Source of the DNA: Bifidobacterium criceti
Lineage (GTDB): Bacteria > Actinomycetota > Actinomycetes > Actinomycetales > Bifidobacteriaceae
Assembly: GCF_002286935.1 (NCBI RefSeq)
Contig: NZ_MVOH01000006.1
Span: 310,001-374,000 of the forward strand
DNA: 64,000 bases
Direction: 5' to 3'
Position 1 is the stretch's first letter. The number at the start of each line of letters is the position of its first letter. Position numbers and translations under genes: made by a program. Under the pieces are notes generated by a model. That model searched no databases. It was not told the origin of the DNA and saw nothing but the letters and a program-made list of their open reading frames with translations. This document shows positions 9,862-18,721 of this stretch, one piece after another.

Positions 9862-11787
9862 TCAGCGCTGCGACGCGTACCGTACGCTCACGCCGCCCGA
9901 GATGAGCACGTTCGGCTCGAGGATGAGTTCGGCTTCCTTCGGCGCTTTGTCCGCGCTCACCGCGCACGGCCAGTATTTGTCGTGTTCGATGAGTCGCTTC
10001 ATCTGCGCGTTCGCGTCGGACGCGAGATCGACGTGGCCGCCCTGGACGCTCAGGCCCGTGCACAGGTCCGCCATCTTGCGCGACGTGAAGTACATGTCAT
10101 CGGTCGCGACCCATGTGTCGTCGTTCGTGTCTTCGTCGTCGGCGTCTTCATCGTTCGTGTCTTCGTCGGTGTCTTCATCGTCGATGTCGTCGTCGGTGCC
10201 GCCGACTTCGACTTCGATACCGGGGATCCGCACGTGCGAGTAGCCGACGATGTCGTCGTTGTCCCATCCGACGATGTCGATGTCGGCGAAGCGGCTGCCG
10301 CGTGACATGATCGTGTACGGACCGCCGATCGAATCGGTGTGGTAGTTCGCGCCGCCGCTTTCGATCTTCCACGAGCATCCGTCGGGGATCGTCACGACGA
10401 CGCGCGCGTTCGTGACCGTCATCGGGATGCGTCCCGTCGGGCAGGTGCTCGTGCCCGGATGCCCGTCGTTGAGCCACACCGTGTGCTTCTTCGTCTCGGA
10501 CAGGTTGACGCTGAGCTGGTTGTGGCGGTAGCTGTTGCCGGTCACGGCGATGCCGCGTTCGAGTTTGCGCAGGTCGTCGGCGGACGACGTCAGTTCGACG
10601 TTGCCGCCCGCGAGGCTTATCGGCGTGTAATCGTGGTCGATGCTGTGCTTGTAGACGTTCACGGCGGTCCATGCGCCGCCGACGACCATCATGCAGCACG
10701 CGACGAACATCGCGATCCATGCGAACGGATGCAGGCCGCCCGTACGGCGTCCGGAGCAGCCGAGGACGATGATGATGACGCCGATCACGGCGCAGACGAC
10801 GCCCGCGTAGAGGACGCCCGGCTGGAGCGAGCTCGCGAACGACAGGCCGCGCACGGCGAACGAGCAGATCGACATCGACGCGATGATGAGCCCGAGGACG
10901 AGCAGGACGAGCGCCGGTCCCGCAGGCTTGCGGCGTGCGGTCTTCAACCGGTCAGGGCGCGGTGCGGGCGCCGGGGCCGTGTAGGTCGGCACGGCGGCCG
11001 CCGGCGCTGGCGTGGACGGCTGCACCGGCCGCTGTGGCGCGGACGGCTGCGGAGCCGCCGCGGCGTACGCCGGCGCTGTATCGACGGGTTCGCCGCCGCT
11101 CATATACATGTCGGCCGGAAAGGGATGGCCATTCTGCGGCGATGTGGATGGGGCTGATGGGGCTGGCGTTGGTGCGGGTCCGTTCGCCGGCATCGCGCCG
11201 CCATAGGGCATGTTCGCCGGAGGCGTCATCGGCGCGGAGCCCGGGCCCGGCATTGGGCCGCCCGGTGCGCCGGCCTGTGCGGCGAAGCGCCTGCGGCCGT
11301 TGTCGACGAGCAGGAAGAACGCGAGCGCGGCGAAGAGGAACGCGCCGACGTTGACGCTCCACGACCCCCACCAGAAGAAGCCGAAGCCGCTGAATCCGCC
11401 GATGAGGATGCAGAGGATGACGCCGACGAACGACCAGTCCCAGTGTCCGTCGATCGCCTCCTCAAGGAGGATCCTGTGGTCGAACTCGTCGGGAAGCAGC
11501 AGCCAGCTGATGCCGTAGAGCACGGCGCCGAAACCGCCGCAGAAGAACGCGACGACCATGAGGACACGGACAAGTGTCACGTTCCAGCCGAGTTCGCGTG
11601 CGATCGCCCCGCAAACACCGGCGATGACGCGGTTGTTCGTGCGTTCGACGCGGCTTTCGCGGATCCAACGGAAGAAGCTCGCCTCCGGCCTCATGCCGGT
11701 CGGTTGCGGCTGGGCGTTCGGTGCCTGATATCCCTGTGCGCCGTCTTGCCCCTGCGGCGACTGCGGGTTGTACTGTGTGTTGCTCAT
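9862..11787 (-). CDS. PspC-domain membrane protein with large C-terminal domain
   Basis: The 641-residue protein begins with a Gln/Pro-rich tail, then a PspC domain (about residues 45-110) with NRVIAGVCGAIARELGWN and YGISWLLLPDE. More membrane helices follow, then a Pro/Ala-rich linker (about 190-315), three further helices (about 325-405) and a beta-rich C-terminal region, probably outside the membrane, interrupted by an Asp/Glu/Thr run near 555-580. PspC proteins act in envelope-stress responses. It is divergent from a kinase that carries its own PspC domain, so the two probably share control and function. ATG at 11787 is chosen; the open frame beyond it overlaps the kinase. Confidence 0.82.
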   Translation of the reverse strand: MSNTQYNPQSPQGQDGAQGYQAPNAQPQPTGMRPEASFFRWIRESRVERTNNRVIAGVCGAIARELGWNVTLVRVLMVVAFFCGGFGAVLYGISWLLLPDEFDHRILLEEAIDGHWDWSFVGVILCILIGGFSGFGFFWWGSWSVNVGAFLFAALAFFLLVDNGRRRFAAQAGAPGGPMPGPGSAPMTPPANMPYGGAMPANGPAPTPAPSAPSTSPQNGHPFPADMYMSGGEPVDTAPAYAAAAPQPSAPQRPVQPSTPAPAAAVPTYTAPAPAPRPDRLKTARRKPAGPALVLLVLGLIIASMSICSFAVRGLSFASSLQPGVLYAGVVCAVIGVIIIVLGCSGRRTGGLHPFAWIAMFVACCMMVVGGAWTAVNVYKHSIDHDYTPISLAGGNVELTSSADDLRKLERGIAVTGNSYRHNQLSVNLSETKKHTVWLNDGHPGTSTCPTGRIPMTVTNARVVVTIPDGCSWKIESGGANYHTDSIGGPYTIMSRGSRFADIDIVGWDNDDIVGYSHVRIPGIEVEVGGTDDDIDDEDTDEDTNDEDADDEDTNDDTWVATDDMYFTSRKMADLCTGLSVQGGHVDLASDANAQMKRLIEHDKYWPCAVSADKAPKEAELILEPNVLISGGVSVRYASQR

Positions 11788-11892
11788 GGCTCCATTACAG
11801 CAGGCCGTCCGCGGGAAACACCTCAGGGGACACCCTGAAAAACCCCTGATTCTTGTCGTCAGGGCTCGGTTTTCTCCCCGAAGGGCGGCACA

Positions 11893-13323
11893 ATGGTAGG
11901 CATGCAGAACGTTTCCGAGACATGGGCCACACCGGTGCCGCGGGCACTGATGCCCGAAACGGCCGCACGGCCATTGCTGCCGGCGCGGCTGCCGCTCATG
12001 CGCCCACGCAAAGGGCGCTGGATCGCCGGCGTCGCGCGCGGCGTGAGCATGCATCTCGGCGTCCATGTGGCCTGGGTGCGGCTCGCGTTCATCGCGGCAT
12101 GCGTGCTGTACGGCGTCGGTCTCGCCGCCTATGTGGCCCTGTGGCTCCTCGTACCCGCAGGCGACCCGGTCGCCGAGGCGCAGCGCATCGCGGAACGGCG
12201 CAATGCGGCCGACGCGCCGCTCGCGAAAGGCAATGCGGGGTCGGGCACCACGGCGCAGCCCATCGCCGGGATCGACGATTACACGGGCCTTGACGCATCG
12301 ACGCCCACGCTTTCGGGCGAAAGCCTCAAACAGTTCTTCGAGGAGGCGTCGAAGCCCGCACTGTTCGCGGCGCTCGGCGTATCGCTCATCGCATGCGCGA
12401 TCATGTTCAACATGGCATCCTCGCGTGCAGGCGGCATCCTTCCCGCCGCGCTCGCGATCATCGGCCTCGGCATCGCATGGATGCGCTACAACGCGCCGCA
12501 TGGGCAGATCGCGACGACGGCGATCGGCGTCGCGCTCGAATTCGTCGCATACGTCGTCTTCCTCGTACAGCCATTGTTCTCGAACGGCGAAGTCACGCTC
12601 GCGCGCAGCCTCGTCAGCGGACTGCTCCTCGTGTTCGCCGTCATCGGCACCCTCACCCCATGGATCATGGCGCTCATGCGCGGCTTCACGAACGAGCGCG
12701 CATTGAAGGAACGCGAGGAGGAACGCGCGGACATGACCGCACATCTGCACGACGGCGTGCTGCAAACGCTCGCGCTCATCCAACTGCACGCGGACGAACC
12801 ACAGACCGTGTTCACGCTCGCGCGTTCACAGGAACGCGAACTGCGCAGCTGGCTGTATCAGGAACGCAAAACCTCGGACCGGTCGGTCAACGCGGGGCTC
12901 ACGCAGATCGCCGCACAAATCGAGGACAGCCACGGCAAACCAATCGAGGTCGTCACCGTCGGCGACGCGCGCCCAAGCGCGCAGACGGACGCGTTGCTCG
13001 ACGCAGCCGCGCAGGCGATGGTCAACGCGGTCACCCATGGCGGCGAACCCGTATCGGTGTACTGTGAGGCGTCGGATGCGCTCGTCGAGGTGTTCGTGCG
13101 CGACCATGGCAATGGATTCCGCATGGAGGATGTGCCACCCGAACGGCTTGGCATACGCGAATCAATCATCGGACGCATCAGACGCCGCGGCGGCAGCGTC
13201 GAAATCGTATCGCGGCCGCAGTGGGGCACCGAAGTGCGCATGCATATGCCGATCGCGTCACAGGACGCGACGCGCGCGAACGCGCATACGGACGCACAGG
13301 AAGCAGGAAAGGAACGCGTATGA
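11893..13323 (+). CDS. PspC-domain sensor histidine kinase (NarL/HisKA_3 type)
   Basis: A 476-residue membrane kinase. An N-terminal PspC domain (about residues 36-100, GRWIAGVARGVSMHLGVHVAWVR) is followed by four helices (about 155-260), a HisKA_3 dimerisation segment with phospho-acceptor His286 in HLHDGVLQTL, and an HATPase domain with an AMVNAVTHGG N-box and DHGNGF G-box. Its stop overlaps the regulator ATG by four bases (ATGA), so the two are translationally coupled. ATG 11893 follows GAAGGG at seven bases; ATG 11902 is the alternative. The arrangement resembles MacS-type PspC kinases of actinobacteria. The signal is unknown. Confidence 0.88.
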   Translation: MVGMQNVSETWATPVPRALMPETAARPLLPARLPLMRPRKGRWIAGVARGVSMHLGVHVAWVRLAFIAACVLYGVGLAAYVALWLLVPAGDPVAEAQRIAERRNAADAPLAKGNAGSGTTAQPIAGIDDYTGLDASTPTLSGESLKQFFEEASKPALFAALGVSLIACAIMFNMASSRAGGILPAALAIIGLGIAWMRYNAPHGQIATTAIGVALEFVAYVVFLVQPLFSNGEVTLARSLVSGLLLVFAVIGTLTPWIMALMRGFTNERALKEREEERADMTAHLHDGVLQTLALIQLHADEPQTVFTLARSQERELRSWLYQERKTSDRSVNAGLTQIAAQIEDSHGKPIEVVTVGDARPSAQTDALLDAAAQAMVNAVTHGGEPVSVYCEASDALVEVFVRDHGNGFRMEDVPPERLGIRESIIGRIRRRGGSVEIVSRPQWGTEVRMHMPIASQDATRANAHTDAQEAGKERV

Positions 13324-14012
13324 GCGGGCAGGATGAGGAGCATACGGCGCGCACGAGGATCGCCGTCGTCGACGACCATGAGATGTTCAGGGCGGGCGTC
13401 ATCGCGACGCTCACGCCGTATTTCGACATCGTCGGGCAGGCGGCCGACGTCGAATCGTCGGTCATGATGATCGCGGACACGAAACCGGACGTCGTCCTGC
13501 TCGACGTGCACGTCCCCGGCGGCAACGGCGGAGGCGGCGCCGAGATCCTCACGACATCGCAGCCGCTGTCGCCATCGTCGGCGTTCCTCGCACTCTCGGT
13601 GTCCGATTCCGCGCAGGACGTCGGCGCCGTCATCCGCGCGGGCGCACGTGGGTATGTGACGAAGACGATCACCGGCAACGAACTGATCCATTCGATCGAG
13701 CAGGTCGCCGACGGATACGCGGTCTTCTCCCCCAAACTCGCGGGATTCGTGCTCTCCGCGTTCCAAGGCGCCCCCGCAGGCGCGAACGGCGCGGACGAGG
13801 AGGCGCACGACGACGAACTCGACCGCCTGTCGACGCGCGAACAGGAGGTCATGCGGCTCATCGCGCGCGGCTATACGTACAAGGAAGCCGCCGCCGAACT
13901 GTTCATATCGGTCAAGACGGTCGAGACCCATGTGAGTTCGGTGCTGCGCAAACTGCAGCTGTCGAACCGCAACGAGCTGACCTTGTGGGCGGCCGACCGC
14001 CACATTGTGTGA
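13320..14012 (+). CDS. LuxR/NarL-family response regulator
   Basis: A 230-residue two-domain regulator: a receiver with acidic pocket VVDDHE, phospho-acceptor Asp62 in VVLLDVHVPGG and Lys in GYVTKTIT, then a LuxR-type helix-turn-helix (LSTREQEVMRLIARG and KTVETHVSSVLRKL). It overlaps the upstream kinase by four bases and is its cognate partner by position. A Gly-rich GGNGGGGAE loop follows the phosphorylation site, which is unusual in length. Likely targets include the divergent PspC operon, but no operator can be named. Confidence 0.9.
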   Translation: MSGQDEEHTARTRIAVVDDHEMFRAGVIATLTPYFDIVGQAADVESSVMMIADTKPDVVLLDVHVPGGNGGGGAEILTTSQPLSPSSAFLALSVSDSAQDVGAVIRAGARGYVTKTITGNELIHSIEQVADGYAVFSPKLAGFVLSAFQGAPAGANGADEEAHDDELDRLSTREQEVMRLIARGYTYKEAAAELFISVKTVETHVSSVLRKLQLSNRNELTLWAADRHIV

Positions 14013-14166
14013 CAGTGCCGTTTCCGTGCCCGACACGCCGCATATTCGAACATCTGTTCGCACAAGGCGATCGCAAGGACGGCGTGTATGCGCGCGAATG
14101 CCCTACGATGGTGGTCAGTGACGCGGACGCCGCATCGGACGCCCGCGAAGGACGACGGGAGCGGCG

Positions 14167-16317
14167 ATGGCGCACGATGACGAGGACGATCTGCTCGCGA
14201 AACTGACGATGTTCAGCGCAGGCGCGCAAGGACATGCGACCGATGCGCACGCGCATGGCACGGACATGCATGGCGCGGACGTGCACGATGCGTACGGCGG
14301 CGCGGATGCGCACGGCGCGGACGACGGCAAGGACGACGGATTCGACGTCGACCGTTTCCTCGACGGTCTTGACGCCATCTTCGCGCGCCACGAGGCGGCG
14401 ACGAAGGCGGAACCGTACCTCCTTGACGCGATGGACGCCGCCGAGAACGCCGGAGACATACCCGGCCTGCTCACCGTGCTCAACGAGACGATGGGATTCT
14501 ACCGTTCGCAATCGCGGCACCAGGACAACCAGTGGATCATCCAACGCGCGATCGAACTCGCGTTGCGCCTTGGATTCGAAGGCACCGAAGCGTGGGCGAC
14601 GACGCTCATCAACGCGGCGACATCGCAACGCGCGGCCGGCAACTACGCCCAGGCCGAAGACCTCTACACGCAGGCGCTCGCATGCGCCGCACACGTCTAC
14701 GGACCTGACGATCGACGGCTCGCGGCGCTCCACAACAACCTGTCGATGCTCTACAGCGAGACGGGGCGCACGGCACAGGCGGTCGACGAACTGCGCACGG
14801 CACTCGCGATCCTCGAACACGGCAGCGTGGACACGGCAACCGACGTCGACATCGCCTCGACATGCGCGAACCTCGCGCTCGCGCTGCTCACGGCACAATC
14901 CGCGGATACGGACACGGCCGCGACGCTCGACAAAGCCGCCGCATGCGCCGGACGCGCGCTCGCGATCTACCGGAACGCGCACGCCGAAGACAGCGCCCAT
15001 TACGCGTCCGCGCTCGCGGCGGCCGCACAGGTCGCGTTCGCGCAGCGGCGTTTCGCGGATGCCATGCACTATTATGAACGCGCACTTGGCATCATCCGCA
15101 TCTGCTACGGCGAGGACACCGATTATTACCGCATCACCGCGGCCAATCTCGATGAGGCGCGCAACGCGCTCGGCAGGGCGGGGCATGCGGCTGCGGATGA
15201 TGCGCATACGAACGGCGTGGCCAAGAGCACGAAGACGGCGAATGAGGCGGTTGATGGCACCACCACAACGGACGCCGCAGCAGCGACCGCGCGCACGAAG
15301 GAGCGCCGCAGCGGCATGCGGCTTGCGCGCGACTTCTGGCTCGCCTACGGCAAACCGATGGTCGAGGAACGCTATCCGCGGTATGCGGGCCGTATCGCGG
15401 CGGGACTCGTCGGCCCCGGGTCGGAATGCTTCGGCTTCGACGACGAGACGTCCGAGGACCATGATTTCGGCGCGAGGTTCTGCCTGTGGCTCACCGACGA
15501 CGACTATGCGGCCATCGGCGCACCACTGCAACATGACTACGAAGCGCTCCCGCGCGATTTCGACGGCGTCTCGCGCTCCGCGACATCACCGCGCGCGCAA
15601 GGCGACGGCAGACGTGACGGCGTGTTCCCGACACACGGGTTCTTCACGTCGCTCACCGGGTATCCGACCGCACCCGACGCCGACGAGCCCCATCTGTGGA
15701 TGATGCTCGACGAGGCGACGTTGGCGAACGCGACGAACGGCCGCGTCTTCGCAGATCCGCTCGGCGAGTTCTCGAAGACGCGCCGATCGTTCCGCACGCC
15801 GCCCGACGATGTGCGGCTCGCGTGGATCTCACGCGGGCTCGGCATGGTCGCGCAAGCCGGCCAATACAATGTGCCGCGCATGCTCGCGCGCGGCGACGGC
15901 GCCGCCGCATGGCTGTGCATCGACGAATATGTGATGGCCGTCTCGTCGCTCGTGTTCCTGCTCAACAACCCGGTGACGGTCGGCTACGCACCGTACTACA
16001 AATGGCGTTTCGCCGCATTGCGCGCGCTGAGCCGGCGTGCGGGCATGCGGCTGACCGAAGTGTGCGGCGAACTTGAGGAACTGTTGCGTCATGCGTCCGC
16101 CGCATGCTTCGGCGGCGCCGGATTCGGTGAAGGCGGTGCCGGCGCCGCACCACATGTGCAGGCGGCCGAATCCCTCATCGGCACGATATGCGCGCAGATC
16201 GTCACCGAACTCCAACGGCAGGGACTCACCGACTCGGACGACGACTTCCTCGAATGGCAGCGCCCCTATATCGAATCGCACATCCACGATCCCGCACAAT
16301 GCCTGCACAGCATCTGA
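14167..16317 (+). CDS. TPR protein with DUF4037 nucleotidyltransferase-like domain
   Basis: A 716-residue cytoplasmic protein. A His/Asp/Ala-rich tail (about 20-55) precedes a tetratricopeptide region (about 90-340) with repeats such as GNYAQAEDLYTQALACA and RRFADAMHYYERALGI. After a linker, the C-terminal half carries a DUF4037-type domain with GSECFGFDDETSEDHDF, which fits the G[GS]-x(9-13)-D-x-D pattern of nucleotidyltransferase-fold proteins. FCLWLTDDD follows. ATG at 14167 has GGGAG upstream. A DUF4125 gene follows after 51 bases; those families often sit together. No biochemical role is established to my knowledge. Confidence 0.75.
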   Translation: MAHDDEDDLLAKLTMFSAGAQGHATDAHAHGTDMHGADVHDAYGGADAHGADDGKDDGFDVDRFLDGLDAIFARHEAATKAEPYLLDAMDAAENAGDIPGLLTVLNETMGFYRSQSRHQDNQWIIQRAIELALRLGFEGTEAWATTLINAATSQRAAGNYAQAEDLYTQALACAAHVYGPDDRRLAALHNNLSMLYSETGRTAQAVDELRTALAILEHGSVDTATDVDIASTCANLALALLTAQSADTDTAATLDKAAACAGRALAIYRNAHAEDSAHYASALAAAAQVAFAQRRFADAMHYYERALGIIRICYGEDTDYYRITAANLDEARNALGRAGHAAADDAHTNGVAKSTKTANEAVDGTTTTDAAAATARTKERRSGMRLARDFWLAYGKPMVEERYPRYAGRIAAGLVGPGSECFGFDDETSEDHDFGARFCLWLTDDDYAAIGAPLQHDYEALPRDFDGVSRSATSPRAQGDGRRDGVFPTHGFFTSLTGYPTAPDADEPHLWMMLDEATLANATNGRVFADPLGEFSKTRRSFRTPPDDVRLAWISRGLGMVAQAGQYNVPRMLARGDGAAAWLCIDEYVMAVSSLVFLLNNPVTVGYAPYYKWRFAALRALSRRAGMRLTEVCGELEELLRHASAACFGGAGFGEGGAGAAPHVQAAESLIGTICAQIVTELQRQGLTDSDDDFLEWQRPYIESHIHDPAQCLHSI

Positions 16318-16368
16318 CAATCGACACCCACACAACAGCACACGGATACGGACACGATGGAGCATCAT

Positions 16369-17034
16369 ATGAACGACCAACCAACGGACGACCAGTCAAT
16401 GGACGATGCACGACGCGCCACGATCGAGCAGATCGTGGCGGCTGAATGGGACATGTTCCAGCACACGGTGAACGAAGGCGGCCGTGCGTCATGCCAAGGC
16501 AACAAACCGATGTTCACACTCATGCGCACAAGCCAGTTCATGACATGGCCCGACGCGCTGCTCACATCGTATCTGCAAGACCTTGAGGCCGCGGCACATG
16601 ACGGACGCAACCTCGTCGAGGAGAAATACGCGCGCATGATGGCGTCGACCGAACCGGAACGCTACGGACGCGACGTCGCGCCCTACATCCCGACGTTGGA
16701 CGAGGCACGCGTCAGGCAGCAGGAACGCATCATCGCGCGGCAGGTCGCCTGGGCGCGCACATTCATGGAGCACTACCCCCACATCGGCGCGAACATGCGC
16801 GTATTGACGACCGATCAGGACACACCGGAGCAGACATCGTACGAGACATATCTGCGCGGCGAACTCGGCACGTACCGGCAGCATACGCTCGACCTGTACG
16901 AACGGTTCGTCGAGGACACCGCACGACGCGGCGGCAACATCGCCGAGGAGACGGTCGCGTGCACGATGCGCCTCATCGGCATCGATGCACTCGACGAAGC
17001 GGAACGTGACGAAGCGGAACGCGCGGCGTGGTAG
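16369..17034 (+). CDS. DUF4125 family protein
   Basis: A 221-residue soluble, mainly helical protein. The N-terminal half has the family-like pattern IVAAEWDMFQHTVNEGGRAS followed by CQGNKPMFTLMRTSQF. ATG 16369 is preferred over ATG 16357 because GGAG (16359-16362) sits six bases before it. It follows the TPR-DUF4037 gene closely on the same strand, implying an operon and a joint function. An RTFMEH segment around residue 129 loosely resembles the R-x4-H motif of HEPN domains, but this is weak. Function unknown. Confidence 0.7.
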   Translation: MNDQPTDDQSMDDARRATIEQIVAAEWDMFQHTVNEGGRASCQGNKPMFTLMRTSQFMTWPDALLTSYLQDLEAAAHDGRNLVEEKYARMMASTEPERYGRDVAPYIPTLDEARVRQQERIIARQVAWARTFMEHYPHIGANMRVLTTDQDTPEQTSYETYLRGELGTYRQHTLDLYERFVEDTARRGGNIAEETVACTMRLIGIDALDEAERDEAERAAW

Positions 17035-17104
17035 TCCATGGACGGAACGAACCGTTGCGCTTTGCGCCGAAGAATCGGCAAGGCTGACGGTACAGTGAGG
17101 AATC

Positions 17105-18721
17105 GTGCAGCATTTCTGGAAGCAATTCGCATGGACGCTCGTCATCTCCGCGCTCACGCTCGCACTGTTCCTCGGTGTGAGCGCGTTGATGATGCCACCA
17201 TGGCGCATCGAGCCACTCAGCGCGCATATCACCGTCTCGACGAGTGACACGGCGATCGCCGCGAAAGGCATCACGACACCCCAGGAAGGCACCTACAAGG
17301 TCAAGGAAACGAAGATCCGCCTCAACATAAGCGGCGGCAAGACCGTCAACGCGATCGTGCGCGAACCGATTGGCGCACCGGAAGGGCGCCCCGCATGCTC
17401 GTTCATACACGGCGCGGGCACCGGCAAAGCCTCGGAGGTCTACGGGGACATCGCGGGCGCGATGGCGTCAGCGGGCATCACGACGCTCGTACAGGACAAA
17501 CGCCTCGACAACTACACGGCCCTGTCGCGCGACTACGCATCGAACGCCGAAGACTACCTCGCCGGCCTCAACACGTTGCGCGCATGGAACGGCGTCGACG
17601 CGTCGAAAGCCGGCATCTACGCGGAATCGGAAGGCACATGGATCGCGACGCTCATGGCGGACCGGGACAAGCACATCGCGTTCGCGGTGCTGACGTCGGC
17701 CCCCGTGTTCGCACCACGCCAGCAGATGGCGATGGCGGCGACGCAGTACCTCAACATCATCGGCGCGCCAAGCGGCGTCATCGGCATCATCCCGAAGCTC
17801 ATCAGCCTCGACTTCTCCCCCTTCGGCCCCGCATACGCGAACTTCGACGCCGCCGCCTACCGGCGCAACCTGACGATGCCGCTCCTCGTCAACTACGGTA
17901 CGAGGGATCCTGCGATGCCGTGCGAACAGGGCGCGCAGCAGCTCATCCACGACGCGCATGACGTCGGCAACGACAACGTGACGGTGCGCTACTATCCGAC
18001 GAACCACCAGATGCGCACCGGTTCGTCGCTCTCCCTTCCCGGCCTCCAACTCGACAAGCATTACACGCACAATCTGGAGGATTGGATCAACGCGGTCGCC
18101 GCGGGCGCAACGGCCACGGATTGGGCGGTGCCGCCGATCGCGGGCACGCAGCCGTTCCAGGAGTTCGCGGTCCCGGCGAACGTGAAACCCGGCTGCGTCC
18201 ATTCGCTCCTTGAGATAATCATCGTCGATGTGCTCGTCGTGCTGCTGTGGCTCGCCGTCGTCATCGGCTGCTGCATCGCGTTCTCGCGGCGCGGCAGTTG
18301 CGACGTCGAATCGCCCGGCCGCAAGGGCCGCACGCTCGTGCACCGCTACGCACCACAGACGAAGACGCTCATCATCGGCAACATCATCCTCACGCCACTC
18401 ATCACATGCGGCTTCATCGCCTACTTCGTGTTCGTCGCACGCGCGGCGCTCAAGCTGGAGGACCATGCGGCCGCGCTCGACGCAGGATGGACCGCGTTGC
18501 GCGTCGCCGCGCTCATCGCGATCATCATGCTGTGTTGGCTATGGGTGCGCCTGTATTTCTTCTATGGGCCGGGCGACATCGACGCATGCGACGCCGACCC
18601 CGACGTGCCACGCAAGGAATACCGCCTGTCGCGCGGACACTCATGGATCATCGGCATGCTGTCCGTGTGTGTGCTGCTCGCCCTGACACTCGCCGACTTC
18701 TTCGGCATCATCGGCTCGTAA
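17105..18721 (+). CDS. Membrane-anchored alpha/beta hydrolase
   Basis: A 538-residue protein with one N-terminal helix (about 8-30), a hydrolase domain (about 60-330), and four C-terminal helices (about 370-535). The triad is visible: a nucleophile elbow YAESEGTW with Ser near residue 175, Asp in NYGTRDPAMP, and His in TNHQMR. The strand before the oxyanion region reads ACSFIHGAGTG. The start is GTG at 17105 with GAGG just upstream. The helices suggest the catalytic domain faces the cell exterior and acts on lipid or envelope esters; this is inference. It stands 70 bases behind the DUF4125 gene and may belong to that operon. Confidence 0.75.
   Translation: MQHFWKQFAWTLVISALTLALFLGVSALMMPPWRIEPLSAHITVSTSDTAIAAKGITTPQEGTYKVKETKIRLNISGGKTVNAIVREPIGAPEGRPACSFIHGAGTGKASEVYGDIAGAMASAGITTLVQDKRLDNYTALSRDYASNAEDYLAGLNTLRAWNGVDASKAGIYAESEGTWIATLMADRDKHIAFAVLTSAPVFAPRQQMAMAATQYLNIIGAPSGVIGIIPKLISLDFSPFGPAYANFDAAAYRRNLTMPLLVNYGTRDPAMPCEQGAQQLIHDAHDVGNDNVTVRYYPTNHQMRTGSSLSLPGLQLDKHYTHNLEDWINAVAAGATATDWAVPPIAGTQPFQEFAVPANVKPGCVHSLLEIIIVDVLVVLLWLAVVIGCCIAFSRRGSCDVESPGRKGRTLVHRYAPQTKTLIIGNIILTPLITCGFIAYFVFVARAALKLEDHAAALDAGWTALRVAALIAIIMLCWLWVRLYFFYGPGDIDACDADPDVPRKEYRLSRGHSWIIGMLSVCVLLALTLADFFGIIGS

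Follow-up and report, generated by a model that had tools for sequence, protein, structure and literature searches.

Glycyl radical enzymes (GREs) drive the formation of trimethylamine, p-cresol and skatole in the gut, the breakdown of sulfonates and the anaerobic decay of hydrocarbons. Their known accessories comprise the radical-SAM activating enzymes (activases), MoxR proteins of the BssE type with their VWA partners, and the spare part GrcA; to our knowledge, none of these is a nucleotidyltransferase. The nucleotidyltransferase superfamily is recognised by the signature hG[GS]x7-13[DE]h[DE], and AMPylation of proteins by one of its members is established for GlnE; the same holds for DrrA, according to the accessible part of the source consulted. 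DUF4037 is listed, in the accessible part of a table of 2013, with HEPN-type C-terminal domains that lack a catalytic motif and with occasional fusion to tetratricopeptide repeats (TPRs) (PMC3710099). Both DUF4037 and DUF4125 are named as unknowns in the accessible part of a paper on a GRE pathway (PMC12583861). This report concerns a pair of genes, encoding a TPR-DUF4037 protein and a DUF4125 protein, in a stretch of 64,000 nucleotides from the 2.16-Mb genome of Bifidobacterium criceti (assembly GCF_002286935.1, contig NZ_MVOH01000006.1, positions 310,001 to 374,000 of the forward strand), hereafter the window. In other bacterial lineages, DUF4125 is linked to genes for GREs and their activases beyond chance. 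This, the strongest context of the pair, lay beyond the sight of an earlier note on the window, which was made from the sequence alone.

The TPR, DUF4037 and DUF4125 module

The pair is confirmed as real, far beyond chance, because both Pfam matches score far above their cut-offs (DUF4037 at residues 511-613 of the 716-residue protein, 99.6 bits against 22.1; DUF4125 in the open reading frame (ORF) at 16357-17034, 245 bits against 25) and because TPR, DUF4037 and DUF4125 are adjacent in all 33 further regions fetched from the genus, in which 34 further genomes carry DUF4125 (35 of 37 in total). The earlier note had described a 716-residue protein joining a TPR region to a GS-x11-DHD domain, with which coordinates and Pfam matches agree, and had placed DUF4125 51 bases behind it, a distance that holds from the second in-frame ATG of the DUF4125 ORF and becomes 39 bases from the first. 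In one genome of the genus, DUF4125 is split over two reading frames (G006:C19:72135-72727), through either a frameshift or an assembly error.

Across genomes this is one module with many ARRANGEMENTS, its three parts being encoded separately or joined in three kinds of fusion. The named loci referred to below are the best 80 of 551 confirmed; all were found through DUF4125, and their genes were called with a simple ORF caller that performs poorly in GC-rich DNA. DUF4037 lies within the fetched stretch at 52 of the 80, and at 18 a single ORF holds both domains; TPRs are also carried by 17 of these 18 and are matched in 47 of the 52 stretches with DUF4037. Three neighbouring genes for TPR, DUF4037 and DUF4125 are present in L068, L167 and L186, and in L177 the TPRs are fused to DUF4125 instead. 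That TPR, DUF4037 and DUF4125 form a real module is close to certain. The partnership of DUF4037 and DUF4125, put forward in the earlier note as a candidate undescribed system, is conserved, and the module appears undescribed in the literature searched, the fold itself being known.

For DUF4037, a structure was predicted from a natural DUF4037-DUF4125 fusion homologous to the window protein (L120:8906-10591, 562 residues, 52-row alignment; pLDDT 93.3, pTM 0.60). Residues 58-350 of this model match the aminoglycoside nucleotidyltransferase ANT(4') (6p01) with Z 12.8 over 237 residues at an rmsd of 6.2, followed by a nucleotidyltransferase-like protein of Exiguobacterium (Z 12.1), LinB (10.6) and ANT(6) (9.4). 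Foldseek alone gave a weak result (best E 7.2e-3, probability 1.00), and when solved structures were searched by sequence, starting from the alignments of DUF4037 and DUF4125, no credible hit emerged (best E 0.81 and 0.2, respectively). As modelled, DUF4037 has a kanamycin-nucleotidyltransferase-type (Pol-beta/KNTase) fold with its own helical C-terminal domain, in keeping with the fold that the earlier note had proposed. The GS-x11-DHD motif, which satisfies the superfamily signature, is kept in 103 of 104 homologues, as that note had required of its DHD residues; the single miss is an incomplete sequence from L063, at the edge of a contig, and the count was made without L162, a shorter copy of L172. 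In the helical domain, the motif Q-x-GQ[YF]N-x2-R is retained in 90 of the 104. DUF4037 is very probably an active nucleotidyltransferase and, since both halves are conserved across phyla, it would be expected to act on one conserved substrate. The window genome encodes a second protein with a DUF4037 match (L165:5387-6220, on contig C9 of G000), of 278 residues and with a GGS...DYDLY motif, which looks like an ordinary ANT-type nucleotidyltransferase.

The DUF4125 protein of the window is modelled with high confidence, from 61 rows, as an all-helical protein (pLDDT 93.9, pTM 0.88), and 14 columns are invariant in those rows, including C46, Q47, R57, N85, K90, Y91 and E169. Against solved structures, Foldseek gave no hit at E 0.001 or better, and the best VIA match, a BAR-type helical protein at Z 4.3, was taken as no match, which does not in itself establish a new fold. 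A DUF4125 gene of Gardnerella vaginalis appears, with a change of -17.0, among the downregulated genes of triple-species biofilms in the accessible part of one study (PMC11410844).

Linkage to glycyl radical enzymes in other lineages

Genes for activases, GREs, MoxR, VWA proteins and fumarases are among the neighbours of the named loci, and a GRE or a strong activase match lies in the fetched stretch of 12 of the 80. Linkage was measured in a fresh sample of 395 genomes from the phylum of a Smithella-type metagenome-assembled genome (MAG), of which 37 carry DUF4125, 31 of these 37 being absent from the earlier loci. In at least 15 of the 31, DUF4125 and a Gly_radical domain are no more than 12 kb apart, where even spacing predicts 1.29 genomes (P 1.9e-14); at tighter distances the figures are at least 13 within 10 kb (1.09 expected) and at least seven within 6 kb (0.68 expected). 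A GRE is present in 28 of the 31, and of the 16 genomes with 1-4 GREs, singled out post hoc, at least 13 are linked against 0.44 expected. The 12-kb cut-off was fixed after a sample of six genomes and before that of 31, so that it is prior for the latter and not for the former. This smaller sample, of 348 genomes from the phylum of a Moorella-type MAG, gave six new genomes with DUF4125, two of them with a GRE, at 8.3 and 11.1 kb from it.

The named loci had been examined before, in a test made after the pattern had already been seen and confined to 44 of the 80, with L047 and the loci of Bifidobacterium and Lachnospiraceae type excluded. At least six of the 44 have a GRE against 0.94 expected (P 2.8e-4), or at least five of 41 once near copies are collapsed (P 1.4e-3); a hidden Markov model (HMM) scan of the fetched stretches of the 36 loci left out found no GRE and no strong activase. 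As for co-occurrence, 42 of the 44 DUF4125-positive genomes of the named loci also have a GRE, as do all 12 DUF4125-positive genomes in a sample from the window's phylum, where the overall frequency is 54 of 296. When the window's own genome is set aside, at least four of the remaining 11 (G325, G272, G335 and G292) carry DUF4125 and a GRE no more than 10 kb apart on one contig, and the other seven have none at that distance among the matches listed. In a DUF4125 tree of 100 rows, built by a quick method, in which six of the 33 genus regions are represented and L175-L191 are not, GRE linkage is scattered and needs 12 changes, at least seven of them on well-supported branches.

The linked loci span several classes of GRE. 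In L186, genes for a GRE (slightly under the cut-off of the HpfG-type model), an activase, TPR, DUF4037 and DUF4125 run head to tail with gaps of less than 30 bases. L159 encodes a 4-hydroxyphenylacetate decarboxylase (1242 bits, cut-off 1150) with its activase, DUF4037 and DUF4125. L163 encodes a GRE of that class (1661 bits) and a divergent activase; a first DUF4125 is followed there by TPR and by another DUF4125, which is divergent as well, and an ORF before the first DUF4125 reads like a transporter gene. Choline TMA-lyase (CutC; 1637 to 1653 bits, cut-off 1050) is found with shell genes in L167, L172, L177 and L178, with a MerR-type regulator beside the cassette; the regulator of L167 resembles the model of the choline-utilisation activator at a score below its cut-off (268.6 of 450), and L178 has TPR-DUF4125 and no DUF4037 in the stretch. 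L166 holds a microcompartment cluster with a PFL2-type GRE, its genes named partly by reading, from which TPR-DUF4037 and DUF4125 diverge. A sulfopropanediol dehydratase (HpsG) scores above cut-off in L181, L183 and L188. In L079, L073, L098 and L187, genes for an activase, MoxR and VWA, a combination familiar from succinate-synthase clusters, stand together with DUF4125; of the activase models, BssD fits L073 best, at a score under its cut-off, and the order in L079 is activase, DUF4125, GRE. The GRE gene beside DUF4125 in L098 (L098:1609-4042) is split over two overlapping ORFs, probably by a frameshift in the MAG. What is common to the linked loci is the chemistry of GREs, not their substrate. 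In the anaerobic limonene degrader LiM6, one contig carries BssE followed by the lrc operon, whose first genes, lrcL (DUF4125) and lrcM (DUF4037), are both expressed, according to the accessible part of the report (PMC12583861).

Proposed role and competing explanations

In the linked lineages, a functional link between the module and GREs is highly likely. That the module is a GRE accessory which includes a working nucleotidyltransferase is the favoured explanation, held with moderate confidence. The TPR arm would most likely recruit or hold a protein, DUF4037, where present, would nucleotidylate a protein (the GRE, its activase or DUF4125), much as GlnE acts on glutamine synthetase, and DUF4125, the most constant part of the module across several phyla, would act as the usual helical partner or as the recipient. 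The module would most likely control, protect or repair the GRE/activase pair. Nucleotidylation of a protein is the likeliest candidate for the mechanism and is proposed tentatively. The fullest version, a dedicated system in which TPR, DUF4037 and DUF4125 reversibly nucleotidylate the GRE or the activase so as to switch it off, protect it or license its (re)activation, is speculative and rather unlikely in all its particulars. If true, it would place a shared control layer over choline TMA-lyase, arylacetate decarboxylases, sulfopropanediol dehydratase and hydrocarbon-succinate synthases, and bring the pyruvate formate-lyase of bifidobacteria under the same layer. Two domains of unknown function gain a testable role from a conserved module in or beside GRE clusters, and such a module might account for the function of these genes in almost all bifidobacteria. 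Of the 5.39 million papers in the collection searched, four mention DUF4037 and two DUF4125. In this literature, which left supplements, most subscription journals and preprints outside, the term 'glycyl radical enzyme' was never found with 'nucleotidyltransferase' or 'tetratricopeptide'; the main texts of three microcompartment papers held no TPR, tetratricopeptide or nucleotidyl word, and four papers retrieved for adenylylation with pyruvate formate-lyase had no bearing on the subject by title and abstract.

A number of observations weigh against this explanation. DUF4037 is local in 5 of the 12 named loci linked to a GRE or activase, and in 11 of 17 stretches around the fresh hits (TPR also in 11; one of the 17, L191, lies at 12.8 kb and so outside the 12-kb count); confidence in the accessory role is slightly lowered by this partial presence. 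Among 27 genomes without a local DUF4037, the domain is found elsewhere in 15 and not at all in 12. Four loci from MAGs of Peptococcaceae, Firmicutes and Desulfotomaculum (L050, L051, L054 and L056) have DUF4125 directly after an RtcB-type gene with no DUF4037 nearby; RtcB was identified by a Pfam match in L051 and by BLAST cluster in the other three, and all four genomes have DUF4037 elsewhere. No GRE was seen in five genomes with DUF4125 (two of 44 and three of 31). The linkage statistics assume evenly spread GREs and independent genomes, neither of which is strictly true, and because catabolic genes cluster, an even-spacing background overstates significance; DUF4125 is also bound to be constant among the linked loci, as every locus was found through it. 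The weaker fold matches of the L120 model (DrrA, Z 7.0; the Hailong protein HalB, 6.4; GlnE, 6.1) fall in a range where chance or common arrangements occur too. In LiM6, the GRE operon lies on a contig other than that of lrcLM, according to the accessible part of the report (PMC12583861).

The clade of the window, made up of 42 rows of Bifidobacterium and Lachnospiraceae type with a support of 87, has no GRE-linked row, and the named rows in the smallest well-supported ten-row set around the window are Bifidobacteriaceae; a GRE role in this clade would therefore rest on homology to its relatives. Both GREs of the window genome, one reading like a pyruvate formate-lyase and the other like NrdD, lie on contigs other than that of the pair. 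GREs are present in all 37 genus genomes, including the 35 with DUF4125, and since two genomes keep them without DUF4125, neither GRE strictly needs it, a further point against the proposed role. By analogy with the linked lineages, a GRE client in Bifidobacterium is possible, somewhat short of probable; the likeliest clients would be the unlinked pyruvate formate-lyase, the NrdD-like enzyme or both. These data fit a general nucleotidylation regulator of anaerobic metabolism, whose target would be a central enzyme or carrier, whose linkage to GREs would reflect no more than the frequency of GRE pathways among its clients in catabolic islands and whose role in Bifidobacterium and Lachnospiraceae would be another one: both the absence of linkage in the clade and the presence of DUF4125 in 35 of 37 genus genomes speak for it. 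However, at least 13 of 16 GRE-poor genomes are linked, in several lineages (L186, L159, L079 and L067) the genes stand close to that of the activase and in order on one strand, and the cassette is common to GREs of different substrate classes. A general regulator of this kind is judged rather unlikely.

A little less weight is given to the possibility that the GRE accessory is DUF4125 by itself, acting for instance as a chaperone or in protection of the radical, with DUF4037-TPR as its optional regulator or a chance companion. The incomplete local presence of DUF4037 noted above would follow from it, as would L163, where a GRE, TPR and two DUF4125 copies occur with no DUF4037 in the stretch. 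Nevertheless, DUF4037 lies near 52 of 80 DUF4125 loci and is fused to DUF4125 in 18, and five of the seven linked named loci without a local copy (L052, L061, L067, L079 and L098) belong to genomes with DUF4037 elsewhere.

A nucleotidyltransferase that modifies small molecules, as the aminoglycoside and lincosamide types do, and that has TPR and DUF4125 for accessories would agree with the best fold matches, ANT(4') and LinB, but is improbable given that residues of both the active site and the helical domain are conserved across phyla and GRE classes, that the second DUF4037-matching protein of the window genome, encoded separately, is ANT-like and that TPR arms usually bind proteins. Still less probable is that the pair is the output arm of the PspC kinase and regulator upstream in an envelope-stress response, as the earlier note had suggested. 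The position that it reported is correct, the TPR-DUF4037 gene beginning on the same strand 154 bases past the end of the response regulator (14012), but the regulator is directly upstream in 5 of 34 genomes, the window included, and elsewhere the kinase lies downstream or is absent from the 13-kb stretch.

Least probable of all is a toxin-antitoxin system of MNT/HEPN type, in which DUF4125 would be the toxin and DUF4037 an antitoxin that acts by nucleotidylation. In its favour are two adjacent genes with the nucleotidyltransferase first, as for MNT-HEPN pairs in the accessible part of the source (PMC3710099). Against it stand a single R-x4-6-H in the window DUF4125 (R134-x4-H139) whose arginine occurs in 6 of 61 rows and whose histidine is outside the five commonest residues at its position, both domains in one chain at 18 loci, DUF4125 in 35 of 37 genus genomes, a match to the generic TPR model alone among defence models and the lack of any DNA match in 72,556 records of plasmids. 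Since R-x4-H is not conserved, the parallel that the earlier note had drawn from this motif loses its basis, and the HEPN-like domain is found inside the DUF4037 protein instead; overall, the interpretation given in that note is partly supported. Phage defence, for which PADLOC gave the generic TPR model only, and carriage on plasmids, with no DNA match among the same records, were likewise rejected.

Features of the locus and comparison with described systems

Table 1. Features of the gene pair and its upstream neighbours (window coordinates)
Feature	Position	Strand	Evidence
TPR-DUF4037 protein, 716 aa	14167..16317	+	ORF; TPR_12 E 3.5e-17, DUF4037 E 1.9e-28
TPR region, residues about 97-309	14455..15093	+	TPR_12 144-217, TPR_2 280-307, kinesin-light-chain match 97-259
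Predicted nucleotidyltransferase domain and HEPN-like helical C-domain, residues about 383-716	15313..16314	+	Conservation; fold match of homologous fusion L120 (residues 58-350) to ANT(4')/KNTase
Putative active-site motif G418-S419-x11-D431-H432-D433	15418..15465	+	Sequence; homologue conservation
D530, candidate third carboxylate after predicted strand	15754..15756	+	88% conserved in 52 rows; strand from homologous model; assignment inferred
DUF4125 protein, 225 aa (221 aa from second ATG at 16369)	16357..17034	+	E 5.8e-73; model; conservation
PspC-domain sensor kinase, neighbour, probably outside module	11893..13323	+	PspC 2.9e-16; HATPase_c 1.9e-5, slightly under cut-off
NarL/LuxR-type response regulator, neighbour	13320..14012	+	Response_reg 1.4e-14, GerE 8.4e-18; start chosen within ORF 13221-14012

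Downstream of the pair lie an ORF with a weak serine-hydrolase match, slightly under its cut-off, and one that reads like a seryl-tRNA synthetase gene. A scan of 13900-17200 for promoters and terminators found no promoter-like site and one terminator-like site, against a mean of 2.5 in shuffled sequence. Two PspC-domain ORFs on opposite strands (9862-12789, minus; 11893-13323, plus) overlap as called, owing to the high G+C content. Other neighbours recur elsewhere. Upstream of DUF4125 in L046, a protein (L046:9125-9790) scores exactly at the Pfam cut-off of ATC_hydrolase and has a relative in L047 by BLAST cluster; the genomes of L046, L048 and L049 have no DUF4037. In six Lachnospiraceae loci (L100, L111, L114, L115, L121 and L123), TPR-DUF4037 and DUF4125 lie closely downstream of paralogous membrane-protein genes, four in number with one visible in L123, which read like subunits of Mrp/NADH-dehydrogenase antiporters. 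In loci of Smithella and Desulfobacteraceae type, a gene for an NAD-dependent epimerase-like protein adjoins DUF4037, mostly between it and DUF4125 (L064:9069-9986 by Pfam match; equivalents in L059, L062, L063, L075, L088 and L089 by BLAST cluster).

Among described systems, KNTase/ANT(4') and LinB, of the Pol-beta superfamily, share with the module the modelled fold of the catalytic and helical domains (Z 12.8 to 10.6) and a motif of the GS-x11-DxD type, whereas the module is set apart by its TPR arm, its DUF4125 partner, the conservation of the active-site motif across phyla and its GRE gene context. With GlnE and DrrA it has in common the proposed mode of action and a weak similarity of fold (GlnE N-terminal domain, Z 6.1; DrrA, 7.0) that lies in the range of chance arrangements, and no sequence match to either surfaced in the searches made. 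The MNT-HEPN pair MntA-HepT likewise has a nucleotidyltransferase gene before that of a helical protein; in contrast, the HEPN-like part of the module is internal to the DUF4037 protein and is listed without a catalytic motif in the accessible part of the 2013 table (PMC3710099), and DUF4125 has no conserved R-x4-H. Finally, the module resembles the known GRE accessories in being encoded beside GREs.

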